Positions 9,591 to 41,792 of a stretch of DNA of 64,000 nucleotides are shown here, in pieces; the stretch's first letter is position 1; each line of letters opens with the position of its first letter. The notes below the pieces were generated by a model. The model was not told the origin of the DNA and searched no databases. It saw only the letters and a list, made by a program, of their open reading frames with translations. The DNA is from Fusarium oxysporum f. sp. lycopersici 4287 (taxonomy: Eukaryota > Ascomycota > Sordariomycetes > Hypocreales > Nectriaceae). The position numbers were made by a program, and so were the translations under genes. The stretch spans positions 377,472-441,471 of the forward strand of contig NW_017264845.1 of NCBI RefSeq assembly GCF_000149955.1, given 5' to 3'.

Positions 9591-10087
9591 CTCCAGTCCC
9601 TCAGGTATACGACTTTTCCATCGCGGGATGGACATTTCCAAAGGACCAGCCTATCATGATCTCAACATTCGACACAGCTCGTAAGCCGTCCGTTTGGAAC
9701 CAAGGCACACCAGATGAACCTCACCCTGTGGACGAGTTCTGGCCAGAACGTTTCATTGTCGAGCCAAAGGATCCTACAAGTGGGCCTACACTATCGCAAA
9801 CTCGCTTGCCAGAAACTAAAGATGAGTGGTCGAAACCATATTTCACACTTGACGGCACAGTCGGATCCTGGATACCTTACGGTGGCGGGTCTCGTATGTG
9901 CCCCGGCCGTCACTTTGCCAAGAAAGAACTGATCGTTACAATGGCCATGTTCCTCACAGCCTTTGACATTGAACTTGAGCCTCGTGACGACTGGATTCGG
10001 AATGATGCCAAGTACTTCATGTTTGGTGTGATGCATCCAAAGGGGCCAATCCCGGCAAGGGTGAGGAGAAGGACACCCAATGTTTGA
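9591..10087 (+). pseudogene. Cytochrome P450, C-terminal fragment only
   Basis: The open frame starts directly at the end of hAT 1 and encodes about 165 aa of the P450 C-terminus. It has a beta-sheet segment (YDFSIAGWTFPKDQPIMIS), the DEFWPERF motif (the PERF region) and the haem-binding loop YGGGSRMCPGRHFAKKE with its Cys ligand. It then closes with a short tail. The N-terminal membrane anchor, I-helix and ExxR are absent: the sequence upstream is transposon, and before that an unrelated amidohydrolase. The CPGRxFA loop resembles CYP7/CYP8-like fungal P450s. It cannot be functional as it stands. Confidence 0.9.
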
Positions 10088-10554
10088 TTCCGTCCCGGTT
10101 CTGAGGTAGTTCATGTCTGCTGTACCTGGTCCATATGCAGTGTCATACTTTCTTTTTTTGTGGCTTGGTTCACCGTAGGCTCCTATAAGCGTTTGTAAGC
10201 ACTACTGTAATTGCTAAAATAGCGATTATAGCCCAATCTCTTGCCCTGTAGCGTAATAGCTAGGTGCGATCATCACACTTAACCTCTGAATATAAACCCT
10301 ATAAATTCATAACTAAATATTTAGAAATCAGTGAGTTTATCATAATAATAGTCCCTCCCCAGTATATCAGCAACTGATTAGACGACTCTAACAAGTATCC
10401 TAAACCTAAATAGATATGGAAAATACCGTAAAGAGGGCCTGTACCGGTATGTTACACTTGGCTGAAGACAGCCATTTCGTCCGCTTCAACGCTTCTGCGT
10501 GTCTTCTTTTTCGTTAGGCAATGGGTCCTAAATCTAATTCCCGGGAGCTGTATA
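10088..10554. other. Intergenic, no gene recognised
   Basis: Moderately AT-rich, with only short frames. The end of the stretch may hold the promoter of the small zinc-finger gene at 10555. Confidence 0.5.
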
Positions 10555-10784
10555 ATGGACATAATTCCCATTGTCTGTGCCCGCTGTGGCGAGGAGAGAC
10601 CGGCGGGCGACTTCGTCAGCAAAAGGAAATCTGCTGGGAACACGAAGAACTGCCTTGATTGTCGTAATAAGAACAATTCTCATGTCAGTTCTGTCTCCCC
10701 ACTCTGTAAAATCAATACTAACTAAATGAAGTATTCCAGATCCAGAGGCGCGACCTTGACGCTGAGAAACCCAGCCTCAGCTGA
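10555..10784 (+). CDS. Small CxxC-CxxC zinc-finger protein (57 aa), possible gene or first-exon remnant
   Basis: Exon 1 (10555-10683) starts with ATG and encodes a compact four-cysteine motif: VCARCGEERPAGDF, then KNCLDCR, i.e. CxxC-x21-CxxC. An intron of 56 bp follows (10684-10739). It has a good tactaac branch point and ttccag acceptor, and a weaker gtcagt donor. Exon 2 (10740-10784) adds HIQRRDLDAEKPSLS and a stop. Similar zinc-ribbon-like N-termini occur at the start of longer fungal proteins of unknown function, so this may be a full small gene or the surviving 5' end of a larger one. It is too short to score well on coding statistics. Confidence 0.4.
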
Positions 10785-11505
10785 GAGATGTCGGAGACGA
10801 TAGGTTCTTACACGGAATCCCTACAAGACAGACGACGGTTCTGCATAATTCTAGGTGATTCTGCTCGCGACAATAAGAAATGTCACAAAAATTGCTCCAG
10901 CGCGTAAATAATGCAATGGTTGTAGATAATTGCTTGGCCCCGTGGACTCCCAGCCTTCGGCTGGTTGTACCCCTTGCACCACCGCTCTAAAGTTAGTTTG
11001 CGTGATTTCGGGATCCCGTCACGTCGCGATTGAATGCCCTTCTGCCGGCGTCCATGGGATCATACGGCCCACTTTATAGATCTCTGCAGCGCGTCGGAGC
11101 TTTAATTTTGGGCCATTTTGAAAGGCCTGAGGGGCAAGAAGGATTCTACCCGCAATATTAGGGTCCGACATATTTCGTGGTTGAGAATCAATTGATTAAA
11201 TAGAGATGATGTAAGTTGAGGGACTTTTGTCACGCATGCTTGTTTGCCACGCAAGCTTATCATGTACGTTACCGCATATCCTAAGTTTATACTAAACAAC
11301 AAAAATAGACCGCTGCTGGGCTGCAGAGACAGTATGATAAATGTAGGACTACAGCATATGAAGAAAGCAAGAGGTATTAAAACACCAAAACTGAATTTAA
11401 AGGTAAAACTAGATAAATGCTGCTGGCTCTGTTCCCGCGTTTTGGTCCGGAAGGATACATGGCAGATACGTAGACCAAGAACCGAGTGTGCTAGGGCCGA
11501 TCCTA
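10785..11505. other. Intergenic, no gene recognised
   Basis: No convincing reading frame or RNA gene. It contains a small hairpin (ccagccttcggctgg near 10950). The right end is probably the 3' region of the SDR gene. Confidence 0.5.
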
Positions 11506-12525
11506 TCACTCGCTCTCGAAGCCTACCAGCTCGTTCGATGCCTTCCAAAGCTTGCTTGCAGACTCCTCGTCGTAAATCCACGGGGCATAACCAACCTCGT
11601 TATTCAACCAGTCTCCCGTAGTATCCGCCGGTCCCTCGTCGACGAGGTTGCTGAGGTACTTGCCGCCTCGACCTTCCCATTCCCTACTCAGCCCAGCATA
11701 AACAGCCGCGGCCGCTCCCTGGGGTTCGCTCTTTATGGTCTTGTGCCTTGTTTCATCCTTCAACATCCCCTCTACTATCTCCTGGCTGAGATACTGAGAG
11801 AGATTGGTGGCGATAATGCCCGGGTGCACAGCGAGGGCGTGCAGTCCCTTGGACCCGTACCGTCTTTCGATCTCGTTTGCGAGGTAGATAGTGGCCGTCT
11901 TGGATTGGCCATATGACGCCCAGGGGTCGTAAGGGTCCTTTTCGAAGTTGAAGTCATGGAAGCGGACCTTACCGTAACGATGGCCGGCGGAGGCCACAAC
12001 AACTACCCGCGATTGGAACTCAGGCGTGGAGGCTGCGAGCAGATCGGGCTTTAACAGTTGGAAGAGGAGGAAGTGGCCCAAGTGGTTCGTGCCAAACTGT
12101 GTCTCGAAGCCATCCTCGGTCCTCCCTTCGGGCGTGGCCATAACGCCCGCGTTGAGGATGAGCAGATTAAGCTTGTCGCTCTTCTCGTGGAAGGCCTTGG
12201 CAGCTGCTCGCACCGAGGCAAGGGAATCCAGCCGCAGCTCTATGCCGTGAACGGGCGCATCAGATTTGGGGCCGGGTCCGTTCTTGACTTTGTCGACGGC
12301 CTGCTGGGCCTTGACGGGGTCTCTGGCACTGACGTAGAGAGTGGCACCGGCGGCGTGGAGAGCTCGCGCTGTTTCGACACCGATACCAGAGTTTGCGCCC
12401 GTCACAAGGGCGACCTTGCCGGTGAGCTTGCCGATGAGGCCTTCGTCCTCAATGACCTGAAGAGCCGTGGGCCGCGCATCTCCAGGACCCTGAGGGTTAG
12501 CGTGGGAGGCGGTGTATCTAGACAT
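11506..12525 (-). CDS. Short-chain dehydrogenase/reductase (retinol-dehydrogenase-like)
   Basis: A single exon encodes about 339 aa from the ATG at 12525. An upstream in-frame start at 12615 would add 30 residues that do not look conserved. The Rossmann fold is plain: LTGKVALVTGANSGIG (TGxxxGIG NAD(P) loop, about residues 35-50), LNLLILNAGVM (NAG motif), the Ser of VVVASAGHR, and the YGQSK catalytic YxxxK. The C-terminal part (NEVGYAPWIYDEESASKLWK) is typical of fungal retinol-dehydrogenase/WW-oxidoreductase-like SDRs. It would reduce or oxidise a small carbonyl or alcohol with NADP(H); the substrate is unknown. No transmembrane segment is seen. No lesions are seen and the neighbours are unrelated. 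Confidence 0.92.
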   Translation of the reverse strand: MSRYTASHANPQGPGDARPTALQVIEDEGLIGKLTGKVALVTGANSGIGVETARALHAAGATLYVSARDPVKAQQAVDKVKNGPGPKSDAPVHGIELRLDSLASVRAAAKAFHEKSDKLNLLILNAGVMATPEGRTEDGFETQFGTNHLGHFLLFQLLKPDLLAASTPEFQSRVVVVASAGHRYGKVRFHDFNFEKDPYDPWASYGQSKTATIYLANEIERRYGSKGLHALAVHPGIIATNLSQYLSQEIVEGMLKDETRHKTIKSEPQGAAAAVYAGLSREWEGRGGKYLSNLVDEGPADTTGDWLNNEVGYAPWIYDEESASKLWKASNELVGFESE

Positions 12526-14243
12526 TGCGATGGATTTCTTATGGAGTCTGGCTTGTGCAGTAAGAGGATGGGATGGTGTTGTTGTGTGACTGTCAGTTTG
12601 AGAGAGAGGAAGCAAGTCGTTTTATACCAGCAGTGTGTGTGAGCTACCACAGAGCGGTTCCACTAAATGCCGGGTTTATAAGCTCAAGCTCACACATGCC
12701 TGGAACCGGAAGCCTCGAAGCTCATGAAGTGTCTGTGTCATGTTTATGTCCCGTAAATTAGGGGGTAGATAACTCAAATCCCACTGCAATGACGTGTTCT
12801 CATCAACAGCCACTGGTGTGGGGCGCATGGGGCGGTGACGCTCTGCTCTTGACGCAATCCTGAGAAAATGCACGACACGATGGAGCTGTCGGTGTTAGAT
12901 AAGTGGGTATGGAAATCTTGGAACACGTCGTTCTGAGGCACTACTAGATTGAACAGAGAAGCTGAGGTCTGCACTCCGCAGACACGATTGTGTTCAGGCT
13001 CCTATGGTTGAGAACTTGAGACAGCTGGCCGGACCTCTGCCCTCAATTTATCACAGTTGGCGCTCTGCCATAGCTCAGTCAAAGTTGAACAAATTAACGA
13101 CGAAACACAGTGATTAAGTCGTACTAAAAAGACACCATCTAATTGCCGAATTTACATTACTGCGAGATACCTTCCAGTATAAGAGGGTTCGAAACCGGCC
13201 GCCTGCTCAATATTTACAAGGTGAAAAACAACATGGACCTTTGGCTCTTGCATGCTTCTATGCCTGGATCAGACTAACTAGTTTTGCCTTAGTTTGCACC
13301 GAATATCTTATCCTCATCAAGTAAACAATCCAAAAACTCTACTTGCGACTAGCATTTTGCACTAAGCCATGGCACTGCTTTATAAGCCCAGTTGATTGTT
13401 TCCCTAAAACGGTAAGAAGCTATTAATAAAGCGACGGTGCCCAAGATCTACGTAGTAGCTGCGTCGTGGGCTGCGACAGACCTGTCACATGCAAAGATAT
13501 GTTTGATCTGCCATTAGATTCTCCACCACTACAATACCTTGAAAGGTAAGTTGTGAAGTACCCACAATGGAATGTCGAGGAGATACTCCAGCAGAAGTTC
13601 GAATCCTCCATCATAACCTTGTAGACAGTCGTTGGATCCAGGACATGTACTACAGGAAGCCTTTGCACCATAATTAAGAGAAGGGCTTTGCATAGCCAGC
13701 ACTAGAGAGTAAGACTTAAAAAGTTCCGAGTACGAATAGTGAAAGCTAAAGAGCCTTGCTGGAGAACAGCTCTAATGTAAGGTACCTACTAAATTCGCAG
13801 GGAGGGGATCCGAAAGCGGTCGGGTGGTGGCATAGCGTTTACGCTAAGGCCACAAAAGGGAAACAATCTGAATCTTGGCACGCCGGTGTTGAAGTGCCTT
13901 ATCTCTTATCTCCGGGGCTAACTAAATATCCCAGCAAGGATCTTCTGAATTTCTCCGCAACTTACCTCCTTCAATTGTTTCCCTAATTCGGACGACAACC
14001 AGCCGAACATACCGCCACCCATCCCATCACCATTTTTATGCCGATATTTGGCACCATATACATTCTCCATACGGACAGAAGCACGCTTGCAGCCACACCT
14101 GGGCAGATACCCGTGGTTTAGCTTCCATCTGAGTGATACTGGCACCTTGGCAAACTTACTTCTTGTCGGCAAACGGCCTTGCAACGGTGTGCCCGGGTAG
14201 ATTCTGTCCCCGTCCAAAGGTATCGGTACATTCCAACGGAACG
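12526..14243. other. Long intergenic stretch, no gene recognised
   Basis: About 1.7 kb with only short frames on both strands and no recognisable protein or RNA. The left end is the SDR promoter and the right end the promoter of the regulator starting at 14244. Confidence 0.5.
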
Positions 14244-15874
14244 ATGCTCAAGGGGCCACGAGCGGCTAAGGGGTTTGTCTTTATCACCGCCGACGCCCAT
14301 GGTCAAGCGGCTGCTGGAGATCGTAAGCTCATACGGAGTCACGTCATGCGGGGGAAGAATACCCGTACACGAGCTCTTCCTGGTCGAGTGAAGGGCCGTT
14401 CTCCGGCTACCGCTATGGGAATACAACGGCCGCAGCATGCTGCAGGAGACAGTGATTCTTCTGAAGAGCCCCACGGAGCTCGGGCACGAAGTGAGCTGCT
14501 CGACTCTGACGAGGATGCTCTGGCCCGCATCAGACATGCAGAAATGGTCCCCGGTGCTGCCGACATGTTCACTTTCATCAAGTTCCCTGAAGACATCGAT
14601 AGTAGTTCGCGCAGCTTGCTATACGCATGTACGTCTCTCCCCTCCGACCATGAGCACGCCCTGCCCCTGACGCCTTCTGTCCTCCAGATTTTTCGTACAT
14701 GAAAGATGAAATGTACCCGATCGTGAGATACTCTCGCCCTGACACTCCCAAGACATACTGGTTTCACTGGGCCCATCTCGACTTGGCCTACCTGCACTCC
14801 ATCCTTTACATGACATCTTTTTCTTTGGATAGTCTGAGGGGGCAGAAGAGTAAGAGGACGGAGTTTCACGCCTACAGGATGATTCACGAGCTTAACAAGC
14901 AACTATCTGATCCGAACACTGCACTGACCGACTCGACAACCATTGTCGTCATGGCCTTGGCCTTGATCGCCGAGTCCTTTGGAGACGTAGAGTCCGCCCA
15001 CATGCACGTGATGGGTCTCAAGAAAATCGTCGACCTCCGTGGTGGCATAGAATCGTTTGCAAGTCACCCTCTTCTTCAATCCAAACTTCACCGGTGGGTT
15101 GCTAGTTCTCTCTTATATTCAGCTTCTCAGGCTCCGGCCAATCGCTGACCTGCCAACGCCGGAAGAACTGGTCTAGTGCACAGCATCTGCACCGGCGCGA
15201 ATCTAGCCTTTCACCAAGATGCTGCGTCGTTCGACTCAGCTTTCGACAGTTCATCTGAACTTGCCCAGCTCAAGCCACCGGACGCGTCCTGCTTCTCCCG
15301 CTCGCGCTCTGCGGTACGGACTTTAAAAAGGAGGCTCTATGCCATCTTGAAGGATGTCCAGGACCTCTCACAGCTTCTCAACGATAGCCACGATTCTGGT
15401 CACAAGATACGGGAGATGTCTCTCGAGGATCTCATAACATACATTCAATCCCGGCTGCTCATGCTCGAATTTGAGGACAACGACATTTTCCCCGAGCTTC
15501 TCCGGTTATCACTCCTCGCTTTCTTGACAACTATCTTCTGGGGTTTTCCTGGTGTCAAATTCGAGTGCCCGCGTCTGGCCAACCAACTCCGACAAGCTTG
15601 CATGGTCTTTACGCCCAGCACCCCTGGAGAGAGCTATCTCTTCGCCTGGGCCTTGATGGTGGGGGCAACGTCTGTGTTCCGAGGCCCTGATCAGACATGG
15701 CTTCTGCAAAGACTGCGCCCTCTGATCCGGGACAGTCTAGGGAGGACGTGGTTCGAAGTAAAAAATAATTTGAGGCAAGTCATGTGGATCGATAGCATTC
15801 ATGACGTCCCCGGGATAGAGGCCTTCAACCAATGTCTTGGGGAAACAGGGGACAGAAGTATTGTTCCGATATAG
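14244..15874 (+). CDS. Fungal transcription-factor-like protein without a Zn2Cys6 cluster
   Basis: Three exons (14244-14628, 14688-15093, 15184-15874) give 493 aa. Introns of 59 bp (gtacgt...ctccag) and 90 bp (gtgggt...cacag) both restore frame. Residues about 9-40 hold the short motif FVFITADAH...RSHVMRGKN, found at the N-terminus of many fungal proteins that carry the fungal-specific transcription factor domain but no DNA-binding cluster. The helical middle part (YAYFSYMKDEMYPIV, LALIAESFGDVESAHMHVMG, LKKIVDLRGG, then SKLHR joined to ICTGANLAF) is typical of that domain. A role in regulation is inferred from the family. The ATG at 14244 is the first in frame before the conserved motif. No lesion is seen. 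Confidence 0.8.
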
Positions 15875-16101
15875 TAATGGACGAGATCTATCTAGCACTC
15901 CGTTGACCTCTATGCCTACCCGGAGGTTTGATCATGGGTACTGTGCATTGACGCCCTTGTCGAGGTACAGATTTCCTTGCATGACCGAAGCCAAAGGTCC
16001 AGTCGTTGATTCTGTGACGGAGACGAGAAGTAGACTAGGCACCGATTTGCCACCGCAAAAGCGATCATGTACGGTAGAAATAAGGTTTATGCTGCATGAA
16101 A

Positions 16102-16458
16102 CTATGATACGGCCGAAAAGCTAGGTTTTAGCTTTCCACTCTGGTGCCGAACAACGTCTTGTGTTTTGTCATCGTAATTATTCGACTGTGTCAGCTCGTC
16201 TACCATGTGGTCAATGTATATGCTAACAGCGGAGGAGATTGACTCATGGTTTAGTTCGAGACAGATTCGGAGCTTCTGCGTAGATGCTCTTAGGGCCTTC
16301 TCGATACTTGGCCAGTTACGACTGGACACGATCAGTTTAGCTGAATATGAAAGGATATCTGGACAAGCAATTCAAGAAGCTGGTCGCGATTTGTCTCGCA
16401 CTCGTCAAGCGCGTCGATGATTAAGAAGGTATTCGGCCGGCTTGAGTCCTGCGAGATG
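16102..16458 (-). pseudogene. NACHT-domain NLR (HET-E type) fragment, 3' piece
   Basis: Reading the minus strand from 16458 gives the Walker B part of a NACHT domain: PNTFLIIDALDECETNRD, then QLLELLVQIS. A frame shift follows, and then SAKLIVSSRNWPSIEKAL and LNHESISSAVSIYIDHMVDEL, all hallmark segments of fungal NACHT STAND receptors. The frame ends at 16102 without the C-terminal repeat domain. This piece begins exactly at the 8-bp target duplication of hAT 2 and continues the reading of 19745-19988 when the transposon is ignored. Such receptors act in heterokaryon incompatibility and innate immunity. Here the gene is broken by a transposon, a frame shift and truncation at both ends. Confidence 0.85.
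16451..16458 (+). repeat. 8-bp target site duplication of hAT 2, left copy
   Basis: gcgagatg directly abuts the left inverted repeat and equals 19745-19752. Confidence 0.95.
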
Positions 16459-19400
16459 CAAGCTTCGAAATCGATCGATTAGATCGACTGTCAGCTCTAG
16501 TCGATCGATTTATATCGAGCAGGGCCTTCAATTGATCGATATCGACCGATTCGGTTCAATTTTTGATCGATCGACGACCGATATCGATCGATCACTCGTA
16601 GTTCTCACTAGGTATCCTTATCCATCCTCATCCTACTCGCTAGCTGAACAACCTGCCTCCAATTGTCCCCTTCAAGGAGACCAAGGGGCAGAGCTGGTTG
16701 GTAGATCCCAGCCTTACTCCACGAACGAAGACACTGGGCCATGGCCACAATATGTCGTCGCAGGCGGCACCTAAGCGGTGTCACCATCTTCCCGCAACTG
16801 CTGAAATCTCTCTGTTTCAGCAGAGGATGACGCAATGGTGAGAAAGTCGACAGCCATGAAAGATAACCGAGGAAACCGCACCGCTCCGACATCCCTCCAC
16901 CGAGCAATCGGATCAACTTTGTACGCGATGTTGTCCACTGGCGGCTCAGACAAGTACTGGTCAAGCTCGTCTTGTACTGGCAACGTGGCTGACTGCCTTC
17001 GCCGTTTGCTTTGTCGTTCTTGAGAGCCAGGCCGGACCAGTGATCGACTAAACGCTAGTCGGCGCTCAATATAGTCCAGGGCACTATTGCTCTCAGTAGT
17101 CGAAACAGTACTGCAAGCTACCTCATGAGCCATGTTCTTGTACTTCTCTTCCCAAACTCTCGTTAGGTTTTCCTCACAAGTCTTCCTCCATTCCGACGTC
17201 TGACGAGACGGTAGCTGGTTCCAAAGCTGCTTTAGTGTTCGCCATTTCTTACACGGGTGAAATACAACTGCCGCTACGTAGGCGGTTGAGGTCAGCTTGC
17301 CATAGTAGCTGTTCAGCTTCTTCTATCCGAGTTTAATGTAAATTTTCAAAAGTCTCCGGGTCTTCGCATCCATGTCATCGAATAAGTGAACCTCTTCCAT
17401 AACATGATCATCATTCTCTTCAATTAATACCCCTTGGACAGCCAGCTCAAGGTGGTCAAGAGCATCTCCACCACCTGGAAGTACTCATCGAACCCTCCCG
17501 ATGTTGAACGTTTACCAGCAATGCCCTCGCCCTGGAGCTGCTTTGAGGCGACCTTGAACGGCTGGAGGATCTTCTGAACTGCCGCAATAACCTTCCATTC
17601 CTCAAGGGAGACAGTTTCTTTCAATATCGCCGGTCTGTCTTGTTCTTTACCGCCTTGGCTGATCCATCGTTCCTCGATAATGGAGAGCATCCTGTTTAAG
17701 GCCGAGCGCTTGAGCAGGGCGCGCGAGGCCATCGCCTCATCGGATTGCCAACGTGTACAGACGTTTTGAATCCACGCAACTACAGGTTCGGTTGGCGCGG
17801 TTTGTCGTTGAGCTTCATAAAAGTCCTCTAGAAGTTGGCTGCTCGTTCGAAGGGCGATGCCAATGTTGTGTAGCTTGCCAAATGGCCCATACTTACGGTA
17901 TGTGTCCATCTCCTCAGCGTTGATAATCTCAGGGATCTGGCACTGCTCCCGATTATGTTCCGGGGCTGTCTCAAGCTCCAAGTCTTCTTCCATGCTTGGC
18001 GTGCCAAAGTCGTCGTCGTCCTTCCCAAGTTCATTGATGGCGTCGGATAACTGGCGTTGCTCGTCCTCTTCCGTCATGAAGTCCTTGTCACCCCAGTGAG
18101 CCAGCAGTTCGTCGAAGTTGTCGCTTTTACTTCCATACATCATAGCCCTGACTGCCAAGTTCAGAAAATGAGGGGCACAACGAATGTGACGCTCATCTTT
18201 GTCGAAGTCGAACTCAGCGGCGAGTGCTTCCATAGCTGTATCATTATTCGCAGCGTTATCAAGCGTATAGTACCCGATTCTGAAGTCGAATAACAGTTAG
18301 AATACTTGGCTCGGCTTGCAAACCGATGGAGTTGTTGGTCATGGTTTCGTACCTATCTTGAAGGTCGAAGGCACAAATCGTGTCTGCAACTTCATCCGCA
18401 AGCACTGCACCAGTATGGCGATTCCTTAGAGCTGGTAACACCAAAAGAATTCTCCATTGTTTCCAATCTCGGTCAATAAAATGAGCATTGATGCCAAGAA
18501 ATGATGCGTTTTGTCGGGAAGTCCAACCGTCGAAGGTAAAATGAACCATACTTCTCGCTTTTCGAAGAAGCACGCGAACTTCCTGGCTAGCTCGATTGTA
18601 CTCACGTGTTAGAAGGTTCACGAGAGTCCTGTCGCTTGGTATCTGCTCTTCCCGGAGAGAAGGGTTGTTGTAGAGCAAGAGTCGCCTGAAGCGCTCTGAG
18701 TTTACTAGATTGAAGGGGAGGTTATGGTACGTAAGCCAGTCGAGCAGGAGCAGCTGGTTCACGGCCGGGTCGAATAATGAGCGCAAATTGCTGACAAGGG
18801 TTTGATCTCGAGGATTCGTGGGATCGGCGTGAAGCATGTCGAGTAGATTCCGTTGTGTACCTCCATTCCTAGAACCTGGACCTGTCATTTTTCCACAAGG
18901 CGGCCGACAAGTCAGTGCTTATCGTTGAGCAACATGGGATAGGGCGTGGGGAGATGGCACCAACCACGACCTTGTGTTCCCTACTCAGATGCCGGACGAT
19001 ACCTCCTGCCGTAGAAGCAACGAAGACATAATTTGTAGTCTTCAGCCTATTACGAAGAAAACACCTCTCGCATATCCATACAATCTTGTGAGGTTGCGAT
19101 CGATTGTCCTTCATTCTAAACCCGAATTGCCACCACCAAGTCCGCTCCCGAGAAGGGTCATGGCATATCGTAAAGCCGGGGAAATGCTCGAATTTATCAA
19201 TCGTCCAAGCCTCGTAGTCCGGAAACTTGCTGGGTGCATACTTAGCTGAAGCCGAGCTGGTTGACAGCTCAGAAGAAGGCGGTGGGATTGAGGTGGTGGC
19301 ATCTTCTACCTCTTCGTCGAAAGAGTCCATGATATATCGGTACGGTAATGACTAAAGACCCACAAAGAGTACTCGAGGTTGGACCGTAGGCTACCACGTT

Positions 19401-19744
19401 GGCAAGTGTCAAATCAATGAGGTTTACTTGAATTGAATATGTTTGAGCAGAGAGCATTGGACAAGCATCCAAGGACACGGATCTGTCTCGTGTCGCGCTG
19501 TGTGACGCGTAAGGTTAAGGTTAGAACGGCACTGGCGGATGCGCAGTGAGGAATGGCCCCACAAATAATAACACCTACCCTAACACTCCCGACGAATTTG
19601 GCGATCGACGATCAAATCGATCAATCACGACTTGTAGTCGATCGATGTCGATCGACTGGAAGGCGGTAGTTGATGGATCGAAATCGAAATCGAATCGATT
19701 AATCGAATCGATCAAATCGATTGGTCGATCGATTTCGAAGCTTG
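16459..19744 (-). mobile_element. hAT transposon 2, inserted in an NLR gene, with 8-bp target duplication
   Basis: The ends are perfect 20-bp inverted repeats (caagcttcgaaatcgatcga at 16459-16478 and its reverse complement at 19725-19744). The target sequence gcgagatg occurs immediately outside both ends (16451-16458 and 19745-19752): the 8-bp duplication expected of hAT insertion. Both subterminal regions are dense in atcgatcga. A degenerate hAT transposase lies inside. Confidence 0.96.
16608..19330 (-). pseudogene. hAT 2 transposase, degenerate
   Basis: Starting at the ATG at 19330, the reading gives an N-terminal zinc-finger region ([17 protein letters not shown]...[11 protein letters not shown]) and, after an intron, the core [20 protein letters not shown] and [20 protein letters not shown] 73-bp intron (18280-18352) then joins DLQDR to [12 protein letters not shown]. 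The rest includes [27 protein letters not shown] and QCLRSWSKAGIY of the hAT dimerisation domain. It is inactive: there is a frame shift after VVEM (about 17465), a TAG near 17322 and a one-base loss near 16815 inside the SSAETER...SSCGKMV motif. The change around the TAG fits a TGG-to-TAG transition. Confidence 0.85.
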
Positions 19745-19752
19745 GCGAGATG
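19745..19752 (+). repeat. 8-bp target site duplication of hAT 2, right copy
   Basis: gcgagatg directly abuts the right inverted repeat and equals 16451-16458. Confidence 0.95.
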
Positions 19753-19988
19753 TTGGCGAGAATCTTGGACAGCGCATCCCATTGATCCACGTCCTCGAAT
19801 AGTTGTTTGCCCGCGTGAGCAAACTTTTTCCGTACGTGCGACATCAGCGGCGGCTCCTGATCAAGGAGGAGATAGAGGAGGCCGCGGAGCACGGACGTCG
19901 CATTACTAAGGCGCACGTCGGTCGCCTATAGGACAAGCGGCGCGTATCCGCAGGTAGTTTCTCTAGCTCTTGGATGATCCCGTACAGG
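19745..19988 (-). pseudogene. NACHT-domain NLR (HET-E type) fragment, 5' piece
   Basis: The minus strand from 19988 reads LYGIIQELEKLPADTRRLSY, then in another frame ATDVRLSNATSVLRGLLYLL, DQEPPLMSHVRKKFAHAG and WDALSKILANIS. It then runs into the hAT 2 target site. These are the segments between the P-loop and Walker B of fungal NACHT receptors. The frame change coincides with loss of about 10 bases where relatives have FFCQ. The P-loop and everything N-terminal of it are missing because hAT 3 starts at 19989. Confidence 0.85.
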
Positions 19989-22900
19989 CTGGCGAATCTA
20001 TCTACATCTATCTACCGGCATCTTATATAGATAGATGTAGATGCTTAGTCATAATTTGCAATGTAGATAGATAGATGTAGGCTACATGTAGATGTAGATA
20101 GATCCGGTAGATAGACGGTCGGCTAATCCTCGGCCGTGTCGTCGCCCACCTCCTTCAGCAAACCTTCATACCCTTCTAGCAGCCCAGCCCGTAACCACGA
20201 CCTTACCGTCTGAGTAACGGCAATTGTGCTTGCATCTAAGCGTGACCTCTTGGGCGAAACCATACTACCAGCGGAAGAAAAGGTCCTCTCACACTCAGAA
20301 GCCATTGCTGGGACAGAGAGGATGTCAATCGCCATTTTCGCCACTCGCGGATACTCAAATCGCTTCGCAGACCAGTATTCCAGAGGATTGTCGTATGTTG
20401 TGTATATGTCTTGCTTTGTAGACAACCACCTCTCCAGTTCGTCTGTGGCTTCGTCATGGCCATGGCGGGTGGATGATATTAATTCGTCTTGGAAGGAATC
20501 AAATGGATTGTACTCGCGCGCCCTCACCGCGGCAGGAAGGTTACTGCTCGAGATCTCCCACTGAGCGGGAAGGTCGCGATACTCCTCTTCCCAGAGCTTT
20601 TGGATGAGCTGGCGTGCCGCGAAAAGCCATTCCTCCTTCTCACCGTAGGCTTTTGTCAAGAACGACCATTGTATACCGGGGTGGAGAACCGTGGCTGCAT
20701 AGTATATTGGCGTCTCATCAAGCTTGGTGTAGTACTTATTGAGCTTGGCCCAGGCCGAATTGACGCACGAGGAATAGTAACTAGGTTCCGCCCGGTGTGT
20801 TGCCTCTGTCTTTGCTTTCTCCAGCGTAGAAAGGAGGAATTCGAATGCGACGGCAACCTGCCAAATAATTCCATATTGAGCTTCAACGCCTCCCTTACGA
20901 ACTCGGAGCTGACAGTCTCCTTCAAGCCGCAAAAGACAGGAATCGAACATTCTAAGAATATCGCTGAACCAACTGAGGGCATCCCAGTCTGCGTCACTCA
21001 GTAGATTTGCTTCCTCAAGACATCGAGGAAGTTGGCTTGGCTGCTGGGTACGGGTAGATCGGGATCGTTGAAATTTCCTGCTTGATTGAATCGTAATGTC
21101 AATCAGCTCCTCCAGATAGCGTCGGAGCTTAATTGCTCGCTCGATCATATAATATTGAGATAGCCAGCGTGTGCTGTTGTCAAGGACGACATCAAGAGTG
21201 CCTGGATAGGACTTGTCAGGGTCCTCATCTTGTAATTTCCGCAGAATTGCTGTCGCCTTATTCGACCGATTGACCCAGACGACAAGGTTGTGGAGTTTAC
21301 CTACTGGACCTCTTTTTGTCCACTCGGAAAAATCGTCCGCATCAAGGTCCTCGAGTGTATTGCTGTCTTTAATGAAGAGGAGCGCTTTGGCGACAAGATG
21401 AAGAATATGTCCGAAACACCGAATCCTTCTGCTGGCCGGATTCTGCCACTGGAGCTTGTGGCCTATTGCTTCGACTGCTCCTTCATTGCTTGCGGCGTTA
21501 TCGTGAATAATGTACCCAACCTTGTTGTTTGCAATCAACTCGAAGTCATCTAACACCTGTTGAAAAAATTGGGAATCCCCCTTATCTTCAGGATTCAGAC
21601 TATTAGTCTGAAAGTCCTAGATTTAAAGTTCAAAGTCCTAGATGAAACTATCTAGAGATATAAACCCGAGAAGAGCTCTCATCTCAATAATGAACAACAA
21701 AGTTTCATAAAATATAATTTTCACCCAGCACTACTGCGCAATATAAACAACAACACCTCCATAACAGCGGCTGAGATATTTTCTCCCGTGTGCGCTATGG
21801 TGACGTTTGGGAGGCCAAGGACGATCTTCCGTGGCTGGAATGTATCTTCATCGAGAAAGAAGGCATTTATGGAGAAGAACGAGTGTCTGTTCCGGGACGC
21901 CCAGCCATCAAATGCAATGTGAACCTGGCTTGGGCTTCGTGATAGCGTGTGGATGACGCGCGATTTGTACGTGTTGAACTCGTCGATGATCCTAGCCCGA
22001 ACCGTTTCATGGGTCAGATTGGCGGAAGTCTCGTGAACCAAGGGGTTCAGGTACTGAAAGACCTTTTGGAGGCCTTTATGCTCCGGTACGCGAAATGACA
22101 GATTTGCATCGGTGATCCACTGGACAACATGGCGCTGGAACGTGGTCTTGTCAAATCGAGTAACCAACTCGTCGTGAAAGTCGTCCCTCTTCCGTTTCTT
22201 GGCTGCCAAATCATGAAGGGTCAGTTGATTCGGAGGCCGCTCCTGCATATATCGTGTTGCTTTTGATGGATCTGGATGAAAAATATTGTGGGCCTTGCTG
22301 AGATGGCCTTCAATGTTCCGAGTGTTGGACGAGACATAAGCCTTTGGCCGGGGAACGCCATGCTGGACACAGTGGCAACAGAGCCATGTATGGGGGCCAG
22401 ACTCATTGCCTTTGGACCTAGCTTGAACGTCATAGCCGTGAGCCCAAAGACAGCCGGTAGCTTGACCAGTTCGAGCTGAGAGGACCCAATGGCTGCGGAC
22501 AGCTTGCGATACTGCATCCCAGTCTTTGATGATTGAATGGCTGCCGCGAGACGAGGAATTGTGCATAGGCAAGGTTGGGTCTTCGGGACAGGATATTTCC
22601 GATATGGTAGTATCGGTTGCGTAACTGAATAAATCGCTTTAAGGTGCCATTTGGGCAATGGTTTTGGGTGGCATCAAGGGCAATGAGAATATGTCAAACC
22701 AAGACCCAAGCGAAAAAGGGGGATGGCGTGGGGAAATCGGGAAATGAGGGACGGTTAGGGAAGGGATTGTCAGAGGTACCGATACTTCGGTGCAGGGGGA
22801 TGCCACTAGTACCGAGAAAGTACAACTACCTCACCCAATTTTCACCGCGGTCTTGGCATCTATCTACAGTTCGTCTATCTACCGGGCCTCCAGGTAGATA

Positions 22901-22996
22901 GATAGAAGACCCACATGTCCTCTGGTAGATAGATAGATGTAGATCTACATCTATCTACATCTACATTTCATCTACATCGGTAGATAGATTCGCCAG
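19989..22996 (-). mobile_element. hAT transposon 3 with open transposase
   Basis: Perfect 17-bp inverted ends (ctggcgaatctatctac at 19989-20005, reverse complement at 22980-22996). Both subterminal regions are built from repeats of tagatagatgtagat and its complement (20000-20115, 22858-22990). One side is the NLR gene; the 8-bp flanks differ (cgtacagg against acatcatg), so the flanks are not from one insertion event. The transposase frame is complete. Confidence 0.9.
20123..22566 (-). CDS. hAT transposase (hAT 3), apparently intact, about 747 aa
   Basis: Exon 1 runs from the ATG at 22566 to 21757 and exon 2 from 21556 to 20123. The 200-bp intron has a weak donor (gtgttg) and a ttttttcaacag acceptor, and splicing joins ENISAAVME to VLDDFELI in frame. 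A BED-like zinc finger is seen (WLCCHCVQHG...IEGHLSKAHN). The catalytic region includes VHIAFDGWASRNRHSFFSI, GYIIHDNAASNEG and NSTRWLSQYYMIERA. The dimerisation domain is DILSVPAMASECERTFSSAG and SRLDASTIAVTQTVRSWLRAG. No stop or frame shift is seen. It could supply transposase to related non-autonomous copies. The intron is longer than all others here and holds short direct repeats (aaagtcctagat). Confidence 0.85.
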
Positions 22997-23909
22997 ACAT
23001 CATGTCTGACCAATGAAACTGCACAATATGAATGGTACATTATTTCCCACCTCAATTAACCTGTGATAGAAGTTCCAATAATATTTTGAGTTACACATCG
23101 CGACATCACACCGCTTACATCCCCACCTTGATTGATGCATCATCAGGTTCCCCGCATGTACCTATCATGTGACAGGGGTGATATGGGGCGGAATACCTTC
23201 TGGAGCCTTAACACAATCGAGGGGATAGTTCATGATAAGAGATTCCGTCGGCGAGGCACGTTCCGTCCATCTTGTTTTTAGCCTCGGCCTGGTTGATAAG
23301 AGTTCGAGTAAGCTAAGGAGAATTAACTAAACGTGGAAATCTTTCGAGATCTGGTGACCAGACTTCCCCGCGTTGTGCAGGGTGCATTATCTCCTCCTTA
23401 TGTTCAGATACGTATGGAGTAGTTGATATGTATTCTGGTTCATGTGGGGCAAAGGTGCTATATGCAGCACTAAAACGTGGAGTGTTACATTGACCTTCGG
23501 TTTCTGGTTCTCGAAGAATTACCTATTGAGGAAATCAAGATTCCAGAGATTAAAGATACCGGTTATACCCATGATCGAAGATCTTCCTATCTCCTTACCC
23601 CGTAACGCTTGTGGGGACCCGTGACGTGTCTGTACATCTGCCACTAAAAACTAGTCCTCTGGTTGGTCTAATGCATGTCTTGGTATCTCCTCAAGCATTA
23701 CGGGTTCTAAGGAGATCAAGATAACTTAAACAGAGATAGATGATTGCTGTTGTTTTCTCGAGAAATTTCCTATTTCAGTAAGCTGGCGTGGCTGGGCCTA
23801 ACTAGAGGGGCACTAACGTATTAGCTCTAAGCGGTGACAGGTGACAGAACCCCTCTGCGGGCCCTCTATTACCCCGTCGTGGTCCTTACTAGACCCGAGT
23901 AGATGCCTT
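22997..23909. other. Intergenic, no gene recognised
   Basis: Only short frames are present. No NACHT sequence continues here on the far side of hAT 3, which shows that the flanks of that element do not belong together. Confidence 0.5.
23901..23909 (+). repeat. 9-bp target duplication of the MULE-type MITE, left
   Basis: agatgcctt equals 24539-24547 on the other side of the element. Confidence 0.88.
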
Positions 23910-24538
23910 GGCGGCCAATACATGGGCACCTAGGTGCCCAAATAACCTTGGGCATCCCTCCTAGTACACGCAATATTATTGGGTCAAAACTCCCCGCACT
24001 TTGACAAAGCACTAAAGCCTCAGGCGGCCTTCATGACTCGTACGGCTGGTACAACAGCACTAACACCTGAGACTGTGTTAGACATTTGCTGCATCGACTT
24101 AACTACAATATTATTATTGATACCTGGAGATGGTGTTGCATTGAAATGAAACGTATATGGGCCAAAGAATATAGTTACTTCCTATTTAATAGTCGAGACG
24201 TTTTGAGCGCTGAATTGGCGTGTGTGCTGTGCTCTTACTCCTCACAGGGCGGCGTTTGGATCAGTTTTCATGCTGTCGACTCTGTAGCGCTCCGTGGGCC
24301 TATAGAATCGTGCTCACCGCAAAATCCTGTGTTCAAGACTTTAACCACCCATTAACCCACAGTTAGGCTACCGCAGTATCTTTGAGCCCATTCCCCCGCC
24401 CATCTGTCCTGCAACAGCTCTCCAAAGTAGCCCTAACCGTCCTGTTGTATGCTATGTATTGGTGCCGCGCTTACTAAGGCGGCGCACCTGGGTGCGCAAC
24501 TTTATTTGGGCACCTAGGTGCCCATGTATTGGCCGCCC
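23910..24538. mobile_element. MULE-type non-autonomous element (MITE), 0.63 kb
   Basis: Near-perfect inverted ends of at least 36 bp (ggcggccaatacatgggcac... at 23910-23945, and the complement at 24502-24537). They contain the palindrome gggcacctaggtgccc at both ends. Directly outside, agatgcctt is present on both sides (23901-23909 and 24539-24547), extending to 10 bases if the next g is counted. A 9-10-bp duplication is characteristic of Mutator-like transposition. The interior has no transposase, so movement would depend on an element elsewhere. Confidence 0.85.
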
Positions 24539-24547
24539 AGATGCCTT
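24539..24547 (+). repeat. 9-bp target duplication of the MULE-type MITE, right
   Basis: agatgcctt equals 23901-23909. Confidence 0.88.
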
Positions 24548-24581
24548 GTGTTAAAATAGGTGTTGTCGTATTGTGTAGATC

Positions 24582-24787
24582 TGTTGAATACTAGTGAAGA
24601 TGAAACCGGCTAACCGGAGGACAGAGCCACCGGTCAGAGAGTTGTCTCAGCACTGTAACAACCTCTTAGATAGGTGGTTACTGAACAGATAGAAATAGGG
24701 TTCCGACCCAACTATCAGACAGAGAGGAAGATAGAAAAGACACACACAAGAAGTTAAATAGTACATAATTCACCCTAATATCTGACA
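24582..24787. repeat. Solo LTR A with 5-bp target duplication
   Basis: A 206-bp unit beginning tgttgaatac and ending tctgaca, flanked on both sides by agatc (24577-24581 and 24788-24792). It is homologous to 25246-25433. TG...CA ends plus a 5-bp duplication and no internal retroelement sequence define a solo LTR left by recombination between the two LTRs of an element. Confidence 0.9.
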
Positions 24788-24792
24788 AGATC

Positions 24793-24946
24793 TGTCTTAG
24801 GGAGAATTCTATATAATAATCTATCTCTATAATTAGCTTAACTTCTTATAATAACTAGGTTTATTTTATAGCTTAATTTCTAGGGCTTTACTAATGGTTT
24901 TATATAGCTTTACTAAAAGTTTTGCATTATACTTTTTTTAATATTT
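24793..24946. other. AT-rich sequence, no gene
   Basis: Very AT-rich (ataataatctatctctataa...), as in RIP-mutated repeats. No reading frame is seen. Confidence 0.6.
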
Positions 24947-25245
24947 TAACATGCGTGATAAGCATGTGTCCTATATAAGCATGTGTCTCACTGGTATTTC
25001 CACTTTAAACCCGGGTTTTTAAAAGTATATAAAACCTTTATTTATGATTTAAAATCTATAAAACTTTTAATAGCTTACTAAGTAGCTATTAAATAAGTTA
25101 TATAAACTTTTCTACATTTTTAAAAAAAATTCCTATATAGCTAGAAATAAAGAAATCTATGTATACTGTGTAAATAGCTCTATTTAGCTAGGGGAATTTT
25201 TAAAACTCTAGAAAAAATACTTTATATAACATAAACTATACTATT

Positions 25246-25433
25246 TGTTGAATACTGGTGAAAATGAGACCGGCTAACCGGCTGACCGAACTACCGGTCA
25301 GAGAGCTGTCTCAGCACTGTAACAACCTCTTAGATAGGTCATTACTGAACAGATAGAAATAGGGTTCCAACCCAACTATCGGACAGAGAGTGGAATACAC
25401 ACAATAGACCCCTATATCTGACACTATTACTAA
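25246..25433. repeat. Solo LTR B with 5-bp target duplication
   Basis: A 188-bp unit, tgttgaatac to tctgaca, flanked by ctatt on both sides (25241-25245 and 25434-25438). It is about 85-90% like solo LTR A by eye and shares the gaaccggctaaccgg and gtctcagcactgtaacaacc blocks. It is an independent insertion of the same retroelement family. Confidence 0.9.
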
Positions 25434-25536
25434 AAAGTATTTTTTTAGAATTTTAACTAATTTATTTCATAGTGAAAACCGCTCTAGGGTAGGACTTATT
25501 TAGTTATACAGTGCGGTGGGACACATGCTTATATGG

Positions 25537-25777
25537 TGTCACGGGTCAGGCTCGGGAATACAGGTGAACAGGGAACGCTTTAGGCGGATAGGTTCTATTG
25601 CTACGGATAGGCACTGCCGGCAGGTCAGGCTCTATTGACAAGACGTAGCTCGAGGAGCTACGTTCGGGAGCTATCTGGCGGTCGGTCAAGATCTTCTGCG
25701 ATAACGTATCGCCACGTGACTGAGATCCACTTGGCCTATCGGTCTAGGGTAACCTGGTCTGGTCTTACGCTGTGACA
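25537..25777 (-). repeat. 3' LTR of the Gypsy element
   Basis: 241 bp, identical to 31034-31274. It contains a 9-bp-stem palindrome acgtagctc-gag-gagctacgt at 25643-25663. Confidence 0.97.
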
Positions 25778-25793
25778 GTATCCCCCTCTCTAG
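25778..25793 (-). promoter_or_regulatory. Polypurine tract of the Gypsy element
   Basis: On the minus strand, agagagggggatac lies immediately before the 3' LTR, the position and composition of a plus-strand primer. Confidence 0.7.
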
Positions 25794-25834
25794 CATCGAG
25801 CTCTGTCGAGATGGGCACTCCGTGGTCTCATCCA

Positions 25835-28800
25835 TCAGGCCCTTTTCTGCGGTCCCGGCTTATCGGGATACCTCCTGTGGAAGTTGGCTACGACCTCAGC
25901 AGCGTTATCCACGTAGTCGGCAGGGACTTCAGTTGGGTCGGTGTATCCTGCCCATTTCACTATGTACTTCAGTCTGGGGCGGCCTCCACGGCCGCGGCGA
26001 TCCCAACGGGAATCGAGGATATCTTCCACTTCCCACTCTTCCACTCCTTCGACCTCGATAGGCGGCGGCGGGTCTGGGTTCTGGCCTGGCAAGGGGTTGG
26101 TGGCGGCGGGTCTGAGCAGGTTCGTGTGAAACACCGGGTGTATCTTCATGCTCGCAGGCAGATCTAACCGGTAGGTATATGGGGAGATGACCTTTGTGAT
26201 CTTAAGGGGACCGATGTTCTTCCAGTCTAGCTTCTTCTGTGGCCTCAAGGTCTTGATATTCCGGGCATCGAGCCAGACATAGTCGCCTTCTCGATAGCAT
26301 CTGGCGGGTCTTCTATGACGGTTCGCCTGGTCTTCGTAACGGGCTTGTGCGGCTATGCTCTCGGAGCGTAAGTACTCTAGTATCTCGTTCATCGTCTGTG
26401 CGAACTGTTCCGCATCTCTCGTGGCAGGGGTTCCTCTGACTGTGATAGTAGGCTCAAAGCCCATCCGGGGGTTAAATCCATAGTTCGCGAAGAACGGGGA
26501 TATCCTAGTGGTCTCAGACTTTAATGAGTTCGCTGCGAACTCGGCCAGGGGGAGCCATCGGCTCCAGTCGTCTTGCAGGTATGACACATAGGTTCTCAGG
26601 TACTGCTCTAGTATGGCATTTAGCCGCTCGGTCTGTCCATCGGTTTCGGGGTGATATGCGGTTGATAGAAGGGCGTTGATGGATAGCTGTTGGTTAAGCT
26701 TCTTCCAGAATTCAGCCACAAACTGAGGTCCTCGATCAGATACTATAGTCTGTGGAAGGCCATGTAGCTTCCACACTTCCTTTAGGTAATATCGGGCGGT
26801 ATCTTCGGCATCACAGGTTCCCTTGCAGGCTATAATATGTCTCATCTTCGTAAGTCGGCAGGCTATGATCAGGATAGCATCGTTCCCTTCGCTAGGTGGC
26901 AGGTGGGTTATAAAGTCCATTGATAGGTGCTGCCAAGCTCGCTCTGGCACGGGCAGGGGCTTTAGGACTCCTTGTCTTGCATCTCGGGCGGGATTCGATC
27001 TTCGGCAGGTGTGACAATTCTTAACCCATCGTTCTACATAAGATAGCATTCCAGGCCAGTAGTAGTCGCGTGAGAGTAGGTCATAAGTGCGGGCGCGGCC
27101 TGGGTGGCCTGCTATGGGGTGTTCGTGACTTGCTTTCAGCAGGGCAGCCTTCAGGGGGTTGTGGTCTGGAATATAAACGCGGTCTCGATAGAGTAGTCGG
27201 CCTTGTACGATAGTGCACTCGGCCAGGGTGATCTTCGGGTGGCGCTGGGCGCCTTCTCTTACGGCCTGCAGTATTGACTGTAGGTCGTCGTCGGTCTGGT
27301 AACCCTCTTCTAATAGGCGGTCGATATCCCCCGGCAAGTCTATGGAAGGACTTGGTTCTGCTGGGGCTGCAGGTATTTGTAGGTGCGGCTGGCGTATACG
27401 GGCCCTCTGAACCTTCAAGGGTGGAAGCTGCCAATTCTCTTTCTTTAGGATTACCTGGCTCTGATGCGCCAGGCGCTCATCCCCCTCCTGAGGCAGGTCT
27501 TCTGACCTCCTGGTCAGAGCATCGGGCTTAACTCCTTGCTTTCCGGGTCGATAGCTAATTTGAAAATTAAAACGAGATAGGAACTCGGACCAACGGGCTT
27601 GTCTTCGGTTCAGTAGCTTCGTTGTCGTAAAGTACTCTAGGTTCTTGTGGTCTGTGATCACCTTGATCGGCGAGGGTGCGCCCTCTAGTTCGGGTCTCCA
27701 TTCCTCAAAACAGCGGATAATTGCCATCAGTTCCTTATCATATATCTCGTAGTTACACTCGGTGGCTGTGTGTTTCTTTGAGAAGAAGGCTACCGGGTGT
27801 AGCCTTCCTTCGTCGTCATATTGCGATAGCACTCCCGCCGAGACGTAGTCAGAGGCATCGGTCTCAAGGATTACATCTCTGGTCCAGTCAAACGGGCGTA
27901 GGATCGGGGCTGTTGTAAAGGCTTCCTTCAGCTTTAGGAAAGCTTTCTCGCAGGCATCATCCCATACGAAGGGCACGTCCTTCTTCGTCAGTCTGTTCAA
28001 GGGTGCCGTGAGCTTTGAGAAGTCACGGATGAACCTCCTATAGAAGTTCCCGAAGCCGATAAAGGCTTGCACATCTGTCAGGCAGGTCGGTGTCTTCCAG
28101 TTCTTGACCGTCTCGACTTTCAAAGGGTCCATTCTAATCCCTTCCTGGCCCACGATTAGGCCTAGGAACTTCGTCTCCTTAACTAGGAATTCGCATTTAG
28201 CAGGATTGGCATAGAGCCCTGCGGCTCGGAGCTTCTGGAGCACCAGCTTAAGGTGCTCTATATGTTCCTCTCGGGTTCGGCTGTATATCAGGATATCATC
28301 TAGGTAGGCTGTACAGAATATATCTAGGTGTTCTCTTAGGGCGTCGTTGATATAACGTTGGAAGGTTGCAGGGGCTCCTGTTAGTCCGAAGGGCATGACT
28401 AGGGATTCGTATAATCCAAAGCGTGTTCGGAAGGCTGTGAGATATTCTTCGCCCTTCCTTATTCGGAGGTTATTAAAGGCAGATACGATGTCTATACGGG
28501 AGAAGTACTTCATGCCGGATAGGTTGTTTAGGGACTCTTTGATCAGGGGCAGCGGGTAGCGGTCCTTGACTGTGATGTTGTTTAGGGCTCTGTAGTCCAC
28601 GCAGAATCGAAGTCCGCCGCCGGGTTTCTTTACAAAAAGTACTGGCGACGCGACAGGCGAAGAGCTAGGTCGGATAAATCCCTTGCGTAGGTTCTCCCTA
28701 AGCCACTCTCGTAGGGCTCTCAGCTCCTCACGAGACATTCCATATAGTGGCCCAAAGGGTAGCTTCCCTCCAGGTACCAGTTCGATGTGGTGGTCTCCGG

Positions 28801-40549: not shown

Positions 40550-41792
40550 AGTGATAGGGCTCTATGAAGTCGGTTACTGATAAGAGTGAAATGCAGAGGG
40601 GTTCGATGCGTCTGTTCAAGGAGCTCCCCAAGAGCGTAGGATGAAGTCGGAGTGTAGTCGGAGTGTGGACAGAGCCTGGAGGAGTGGAGGCGGGATGTTT
40701 GAACCTTTTCAGCCAGTCAACTTGGGGGATCCCCCGCGGCAATATCCATGAATTGCCCCGACAGACCCTAGCATCAGTGCAGAGTCAATATCCAGCCTGT
40801 GACAACGCCAAAACGACGCGCCACCGGGGAGGGGTGGAAGAAGACACACATGATAGGTGACAAGGAATCAAAATTTAAAGTTTATGGGAAGCTCTGAACT
40901 TAATTTGCTCTGATAAGACGAGATACCGTAGTAAGCACTGTAGCAAGTGGGCGAATGATAGGTGGGCGCCTGGGCGCGCCGCCTGACTAAGCCCCGGAAA
41001 TGCATTCTCCGATTGGTGCTGCGAGACGCGCTCTGCAACACCTGTCACAGACAATAGTAATGCAAATCTTTATCTTTACCCAGAAAAAATAAAACTAGTC
41101 TGGACGTATATTAGGCACTTGGATCCATCCCAAACAGGAAGTTATTTCTTACGAAATCATTTGGCCGGCGGGTTTTCCATTGGCCAATAGCGGGAGTCGT
41201 AGCTTATCATTATGTCAATCAGGTCAGGGGTTCACAGGGGGACAGATAGTGGTGTGGAGCCCCGACATGCTCCCAATCATGGCCAATCATGTTTGCAGAT
41301 CTAGCATCACCTCCATGAATTGGCAAAAGCCTCCGGGGAACTGGCTACATAAACCCTCGTCTCACCAGGGTGGCCCAAGTCTAGCTGGACCGTCGGTATT
41401 ACAACCGAGAGAAATCAGAACTTCCAAACTGATGTTGGCCCTGTATGGTTCGCCACCGAAGCCACCAGTGGAACGGGTAGATGCACTGTCCTTGGAGCCT
41501 ACGACAGGGGTATTATACTAAGATCGGTCATCGTATCGCTAATAGTTGACAGTGGCTCTATGCGAGATGATAAGTCACTATATGGACCGTCCTTTCCCGA
41601 TGCTTCGACTGAGGAGAATGGATGGTAAAGGAATTTTGTTTGGAAAAGGCGACACAACTACCCGATATCGGATTTGAAAGACACAAGACCGGAATCTTCC
41701 GAGGTCACCATAACTTGAAAAGTGAAATTGCGAGGTATAGGATTTTCATTGGGGAAAGCCATAGGTTACGTATATCTAGTCACGAAAATATC
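40550..41792. other. Intergenic, no gene recognised
   Basis: Only short frames are present. At about 40967-40995 a GC-rich palindromic patch (gggcgcctgggcgcgcc) resembles a subterminal block of the MITE near 24480 and may be a relic of that family. Confidence 0.5.

Follow-up and report, generated by a model that had tools for sequence, protein, structure and literature searches.

The stretch of Fusarium oxysporum f. sp. lycopersici 4287 DNA analysed here (the window: 64,000 nucleotides, positions 377472-441471 of contig C71, NW_017264845.1, in a genome of 61.2 Mb and 71 contigs) carries the relic of a NACHT-domain gene of the NOD-like receptor (NLR) family. The relic is split by one hAT transposon (element 1) and bordered by a second (element 2). 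The site was compared with paralogous loci of this one genome. It is highly probable that the core of the case is correctly described by the insertion of element 1, an empty site for it in the same genome, the limits of the NACHT fragment, the position of element 2 and one missense change that preceded element 1. The features concerned are the following.

16142..16458, minus strand: C-terminal part of the NACHT fragment (Walker B, IDALDEC, onward), 94% identical to the paralog by alignment with it; homology ends at 16142.
16451..16458, unstranded: target-site duplication (TSD), 8 bp, left copy, GCGAGATG, by flank comparison.
16459..19744, minus strand: hAT element 1, 3,286 bp, with terminal inverted repeats (TIRs), TSD and hATC domain PF05699; transposase split over several frames.
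16459..16478, plus strand: left TIR, 20 bp, by end comparison.
19725..19744, minus strand: right TIR, 20 bp, by end comparison.
19745..19752, unstranded: TSD, 8 bp, right copy, GCGAGATG, by flank comparison.
19745..19984, minus strand: N-terminal part of the NACHT fragment (from just after Walker A), 88% identical to the paralog by alignment with it; ends at element 2.
19985..22996, minus strand: hAT element 2, left terminus CAGG..., right end without its last 4 bp, hATC domain PF05699 at E=9.3e-17; no matching duplication seen.

Element 1 is a hAT DNA transposon, having the 8-bp TSD, the short TIRs and the hAT C-terminal dimerisation domain of that group. The two TIRs agree at 20 of 20 bases, and the ends read CAAGCTTCGAAATCGATCGA. 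The 20-bp terminus occurs once per orientation in the window, and GCGAGATG is found on the plus strand at three places (both TSD copies and position 41562) and on the minus strand at none. The chance that two given 8-mers match is 1.6e-5, calculated from the composition. An origin of the inverted ends by chance is ruled out by the TIRs, the TSD and the empty site described below. The interval 16451..19752 reported in the initial annotation is right when both TSDs are included, the element itself being 16459-19744. The hATC domain (PF05699) lies within 16771-17322 on the minus strand (E=2.7e-9; 37.1 bits, cut-off 21.4), and the remainder of the domain is in another frame, where it falls under the cut-off (E=0.017). 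The transposase open reading frames (ORFs) are interrupted by several frame breaks, two of which look intron-like by eye. One break near the C-terminus is common to element 1 and a 3,103-bp relative elsewhere in the genome, both ORFs ending in the same peptide, and element 1 carries further breaks of its own. Because of the shared break and these additional ones, the copy in the window is probably non-autonomous, as judged from its reading frames.

An empty site for element 1 is present in the same genome. When the two flanks were searched separately, and the window and its near-identical counterpart on contig C15 (the twin loci) were set aside, the top three loci were the same for both, and the flanks are adjacent there: C6:1850007-1850565, C3:3517925-3518483 and C3:2612659-2613217 (L027, L028 and L029). 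Joining the flanks with one TSD copy gives a contiguous match to each of the three, with a score of 788 bits. The full alignment, displayed for two of them, has 512 identical columns out of 562 and 14 gap columns. Identity among the three loci is 99.99-100% over ~7.7 kb. As copies of one segment, they count as one independent comparison. Thus, the earlier description of a hAT transposon within NACHT sequence, with flanks that continue one another as a single domain, is borne out by the TIRs, the TSD, PF05699 and the empty site. It had been stated that this description should be given up if the joined flanks did not match one NACHT gene contiguously or if the same 8-bp duplication stood beside like ends at unrelated places. 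The joined flanks do match contiguously, and the other elements with such ends carry different duplications, AGAATTGG and CACCAAGG.

The paralog at the empty site is an open 522-aa ORF with matches to NPHP3_N (1.1e-37) and NACHT (2.3e-12), and 98% of its length is covered by a 100%-identical match to FOXG_07279, a protein of 550 aa. ORFs with WD40 repeats lie downstream of it in other frames. The HET domain (PF06985) was not found in the paralog ORF, in FOXG_07279 or in the window pieces tested, and the label 'HET-E-type' given to the receptor earlier is therefore not supported; some of the listed homologues of the paralog do carry PF06985. On the opposite strand, the intact paralog is adjoined by an ORF with a PNP_UDP_1 match (E=2.1e-15; L027, 2262-3365, minus strand), which could be part of another NLR or an inverted effector domain.

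What remains of the NACHT gene in the window is ~550 bp of coding sequence, ~185 codons, corresponding to codons 88-272 of the paralog ORF. The initial annotation spoke of a receptor gene; the NACHT sequence is indeed there, but only as this fragment, with a second hAT element at its border. Element 1 was inserted some 10-13 codons upstream of Walker B (IDALDEC), which is kept. Walker A is missing from the fragment, which starts just after the paralog codons for GDPGKGKTM, and element 2 borders it directly after the place where Walker A would lie. A protein search with the 522-aa sequence recognized three pieces at the locus (codons 204-274, 166-203 and 108-187), with 70-92% match between the fragment pieces and the paralog protein; in the separate Pfam comparison, the N-terminal piece alone scored E=0.012, under the cut-off. 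At E<=1e-10, and with 83 of 151 candidates scored, the protein search found 71 stretches genome-wide and no N- or C-terminal remainder adjoining the fragment. Similarly, BLASTN (E<=1e-5) of window positions 9000-26000 against the 9.5-kb paralog loci yielded no stretch beyond 16142-16458 and 19745-~19984, and in this comparison, which included the WD40 ORFs, neither an effector domain nor WD40 repeats were found beside the fragment. The left end of NACHT homology at 16142 is abrupt, and the adjoining 15875-16141 was detected nowhere but at the twin loci, incompletely at that on C15. Relative to the open paralog, the fragment has lost a net 10 bp next to an in-frame stop on one side of element 1 and 1 bp on the other, in agreement with the frame shift previously noted on each side. 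A role in self/non-self recognition is suggested for the gene by its family.

Element 2 was compared with its copies elsewhere, 15 loci being inspected of the 31 genome matches to its left part and 10 of the 68 matches to its right part. At the left end, 13 of the 15 loci read CAGGCTGGCGAATCTATCTA (11 of these 13 are outside the window and the twin), and L049 and L050 deviate. At the right end, all eight inspected loci outside the window and the twin read ...CGCCAGCCTG, whereas in the window and the C15 twin CGCCAG is followed by other sequence, without CCTG. One copy of element 2, duplicated on C6, shows an 8-bp TSD, GTCGAGTC. A later break at element 2 is suggested because its far end is short by 4 bp. 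The simplest reading would be that the element was inserted in the gene and that a subsequent break in its far end removed the 5' part of the gene.

The history of the relic may then be pictured as follows. A NACHT gene, a paralog of FOXG_07279, would have stood at the site; the paralog pair would have evolved mostly under constraint, and the copy in the window would then have decayed. Two hAT transposons entered in or at the NACHT-coding part: element 1 upstream of Walker B, in an ordinary cut-and-paste event whose 8-bp staggered cut was filled in, and element 2 immediately beyond the Walker A position. One flank of the gene was probably lost by the break at the far end of element 2, and the other may have been lost at the junction at 16142. 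Finally, the relic would have been duplicated, together with the sequence around it, between this contig and a second one, in either direction, unless the second is partly redundant. Beyond the core named at the outset, we infer how the other events were ordered, that a break took place and that a working receptor formerly stood at the site.

Constraint on the gene is indicated by the substitutions between fragment and paralog. Among 179 codons compared, 34 are changed, through 20 synonymous and 15 nonsynonymous substitutions and one stop. The nonsynonymous and synonymous rates (dN and dS) are 0.038 and 0.18, a ratio of 0.21 from which the stop codon is excluded. Altogether, 16 of the 36 substitutions alter or stop the protein, against 24.5 +/- 2.7 expected (5,000 neutral simulations, P=0.002). 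Since the protein changes are fewer than under neutrality, the two lineages were jointly under constraint for most of their history. The changes were assigned to lineages with 119 homologues, namely the best 120 of the 5,189 found by the 522-aa search (E<=0.001, among 7,992 scored candidates) minus the paralog itself. At codons 88, 156, 169 and 252 the residue of the fragment occurs in none of the 119, at codon 135 in three and at codon 269 in two; codons 88, 156 and 169 are sites that hardly vary among the homologues. The paralog has the derived residue at codons 118, 125 and 219, and for the missense codons 92, 247, 254, 259 and 264 it is ambiguous which lineage changed.

One of these changes can be dated relative to the insertion. 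Codon 169, which encodes Leu in 118 of the 119 homologues and Met in one, lies inside the TSD; the base of the fragment is present in both TSD copies, and the paralog has another base. Because it is in both copies, the codon-169 change predates element 1. At codon 167, both TSD copies likewise share a synonymous difference from the paralog, and the lineage that changed there is ambiguous. By this reckoning from the sequence, element 1 may have hit a gene that was already drifting. The dating weakens the case for element 1 as the killing event, and it is no proof that the gene was dead at the time of insertion. The statement in the initial annotation that the locus is direct evidence for inactivation of a receptor by transposition is accordingly not supported in that form, as it requires an intact gene before the insertion, and the change at a near-invariant Leu, the one datable missense change of the fragment lineage, preceded the insertion.

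Repeat-induced point mutation (RIP) was considered as a cause of the decay and rejected. From paralog to fragment there are 10 G>A, five C>T, 10 T>C and five A>G changes and six transversions, with no excess of C>T and G>A. The RIP index TpA/ApT is 0.73 and 0.79 in the two fragment parts and 0.65 in the paralog, which gives no clear RIP signal.

Several observations weigh against the history proposed above. The ratio dN/dS is averaged over both lineages. The notion of a gene already drifting draws on one datable missense residue, and a working gene could have tolerated the codon-169 change. The fragment begins with codon 88, where it meets element 2, and the change there may be an effect of that junction. 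The order of elements 1 and 2, of both frame lesions and of both truncations is ambiguous. For the copies of element 2 at 1.27 Mb on C15 and at 6.41 Mb on C1, too, the left and right flanks show no matching duplication; the missing TSD is thus not peculiar to the copy in the window, and only the 4 missing bp speak for a break there. Also, the paralog ORF has no effector domain above Pfam cut-offs, and the paralog itself may be no working receptor.

The other explanations concern the order, place and cause of the events and overlap with the core reading. According to the first, element 1 was the primary inactivation: it struck an NLR that was complete and working, and the gene, then dead, later acquired the frame lesions, the second hAT element and the truncations. 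The low dN/dS and the departure from neutrality fit a gene that was functional over most of its past, and the frame lesions lie outside the TSD and are undated. Nevertheless, the change at the conserved Leu was already there when element 1 arrived. In addition, the absence of differences between the two TIRs and between the two TSDs hints at little time since insertion, a time that these 28 positions bound loosely. This order of events is possible, and we regard it as doubtful. According to the second, a full gene never stood at the site; a NACHT fragment was moved there by duplication, transposition or rearrangement, and element 1 was inserted afterwards. It would account for the abrupt end of paralog homology on both sides (16142 and ~19984), one of them exactly at a transposon terminus, and for the restriction of 15875-16141 to the twin loci. 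On the other hand, element 2 has a normal left end against the NACHT sequence and a broken far end, which is explained more simply by insertion in a longer gene followed by loss, and a dN/dS well under 1 implies a long coding history, though not necessarily at this site. Arrival as a fragment is therefore judged unlikely. Selection for the loss of a self/non-self receptor in a putative accessory region, for example by lifting a barrier to fusion and chromosome transfer, might be entertained in view of lineage-specific chromosomes that are movable between strains of this organism, as described in the part of the source consulted (PMC3599309), and is highly improbable for a gene that is a fragment in a genome with 71 NACHT-matching stretches. 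It is equally far-fetched that hAT elements repeatedly strike recognition receptors in Fusarium accessory regions, as the two in one NACHT fragment might suggest, with their loss favoured by letting accessory chromosomes pass without incompatibility.

Decay of an NLR gene with a transposon insertion has precedents, which are cited here from partial texts. The nwd2 gene of Podospora anserina is, in het-s strains, an NLR pseudogene with the scar of the transposon repa (PMC3321046; PMC4344463), and resembles the present locus in that a transposon has disrupted a NACHT NLR gene of a fungus. In that case, the insertion is of ~0.5 kb and polymorphic with a working allele, whereas here a 3.3-kb hAT element lies in a truncated fragment next to a second hAT element, in one genome. 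Decay within the NWD family of P. anserina is also documented by NWD pseudogenes, of which NWDp3 lies directly behind a transposon relic (PMC1805685). NWDp1 and NWDp2 died by RIP, in contrast to the fragment in the window with its lack of a clear RIP signal. In F. oxysporum f. sp. lycopersici, the hAT-type insertions Hormin in AVR1 and Drifter in SIX1-H were reported (PMC3428301; PMC3599309). Both interrupt coding genes of this organism, and an 8-bp duplication is reported for Hormin, but the host genes are of another kind, and the Hormin ends, CAGGGTTCAAATCCA, are unlike those of element 1. The hAT families YahAT, Hornet and Folyt are listed for the pathogenicity chromosome of this organism by names and counts, not sequences, in the portion of PMC3599309 available.

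Transposon-inactivated fungal NLR genes and hAT-disrupted Fusarium genes are thus already known, and the locus is a further case, in more advanced decay than the initial annotation supposed. It is an ordinary genomic relic, not a straightforward example of a single insertion silencing a receptor. No report of the locus was found in the open-licence PMC literature, which does not show it to be unpublished. What is added is one well-documented NLR relic, one precisely delimited low-copy hAT element, its empty site within the same genome and another insertion site of the family. The locus also illustrates that substitutions inside a target-site duplication are datable relative to the insertion.

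Relatives of element 1 were found at both the protein and the nucleotide level. Among 944 candidates, its largest single-frame ORF (290 aa) matched 84 proteins at E<=0.001, which come from Fusarium, Metarhizium, Hirsutella, Purpureocillium and others. Some of these fungal relatives bear the source name AC or hAT transposase, and the search gave no family name past such AC, hAT or Restless-like source names. An assignment to Hornet or Hormin was rejected on the differing ends of Hormin, which is said to be highly homologous to Hornet1. A 553-bp piece of element 1 matched six places in the genome, which represent two insertion sites. The first comprises the window and the C15 twin; the second is that of the 3,103-bp relative on C70, on C6 and twice on C3, with flanks identical among these copies and the TSD AGAATTGG. 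In a MAFFT alignment of 3,287 columns, element 1 and this relative differ by 89 mismatches and 185 gap columns. Each of the two sites was copied with its flanks, and the six matches do not represent many transpositions. In addition, a 430-bp element with ends nearly as in element 1 and the TSD CACCAAGG occurs twice on C15, with identical bases on its flanks (L003 and L004, 1502-1931); it is a probable short, non-autonomous relative of element 1.

The twin of the locus is part of a longer repeat. Window positions 718 to 41120 recur on contig C15 at 99.75-100% identity over aligned stretches. Over the first 10 kb compared, there are 13 mismatches and eight gap openings; thereafter, up to 41120, the aligned stretches are 99.9-100% identical and are separated by two unaligned gaps. 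A further protein match is at a similar offset, ~190 kb off, on both contigs (C71:204344 and C15:1974021). The twin is either a recent segmental duplication or, in part, a redundant contig. To the left of the NACHT relic, the window contains a transcription-factor-like coding sequence at 14654-15874 in two successive open stretches, the first part of which is matched by Fungal_trans_2 (E=1.1e-8).
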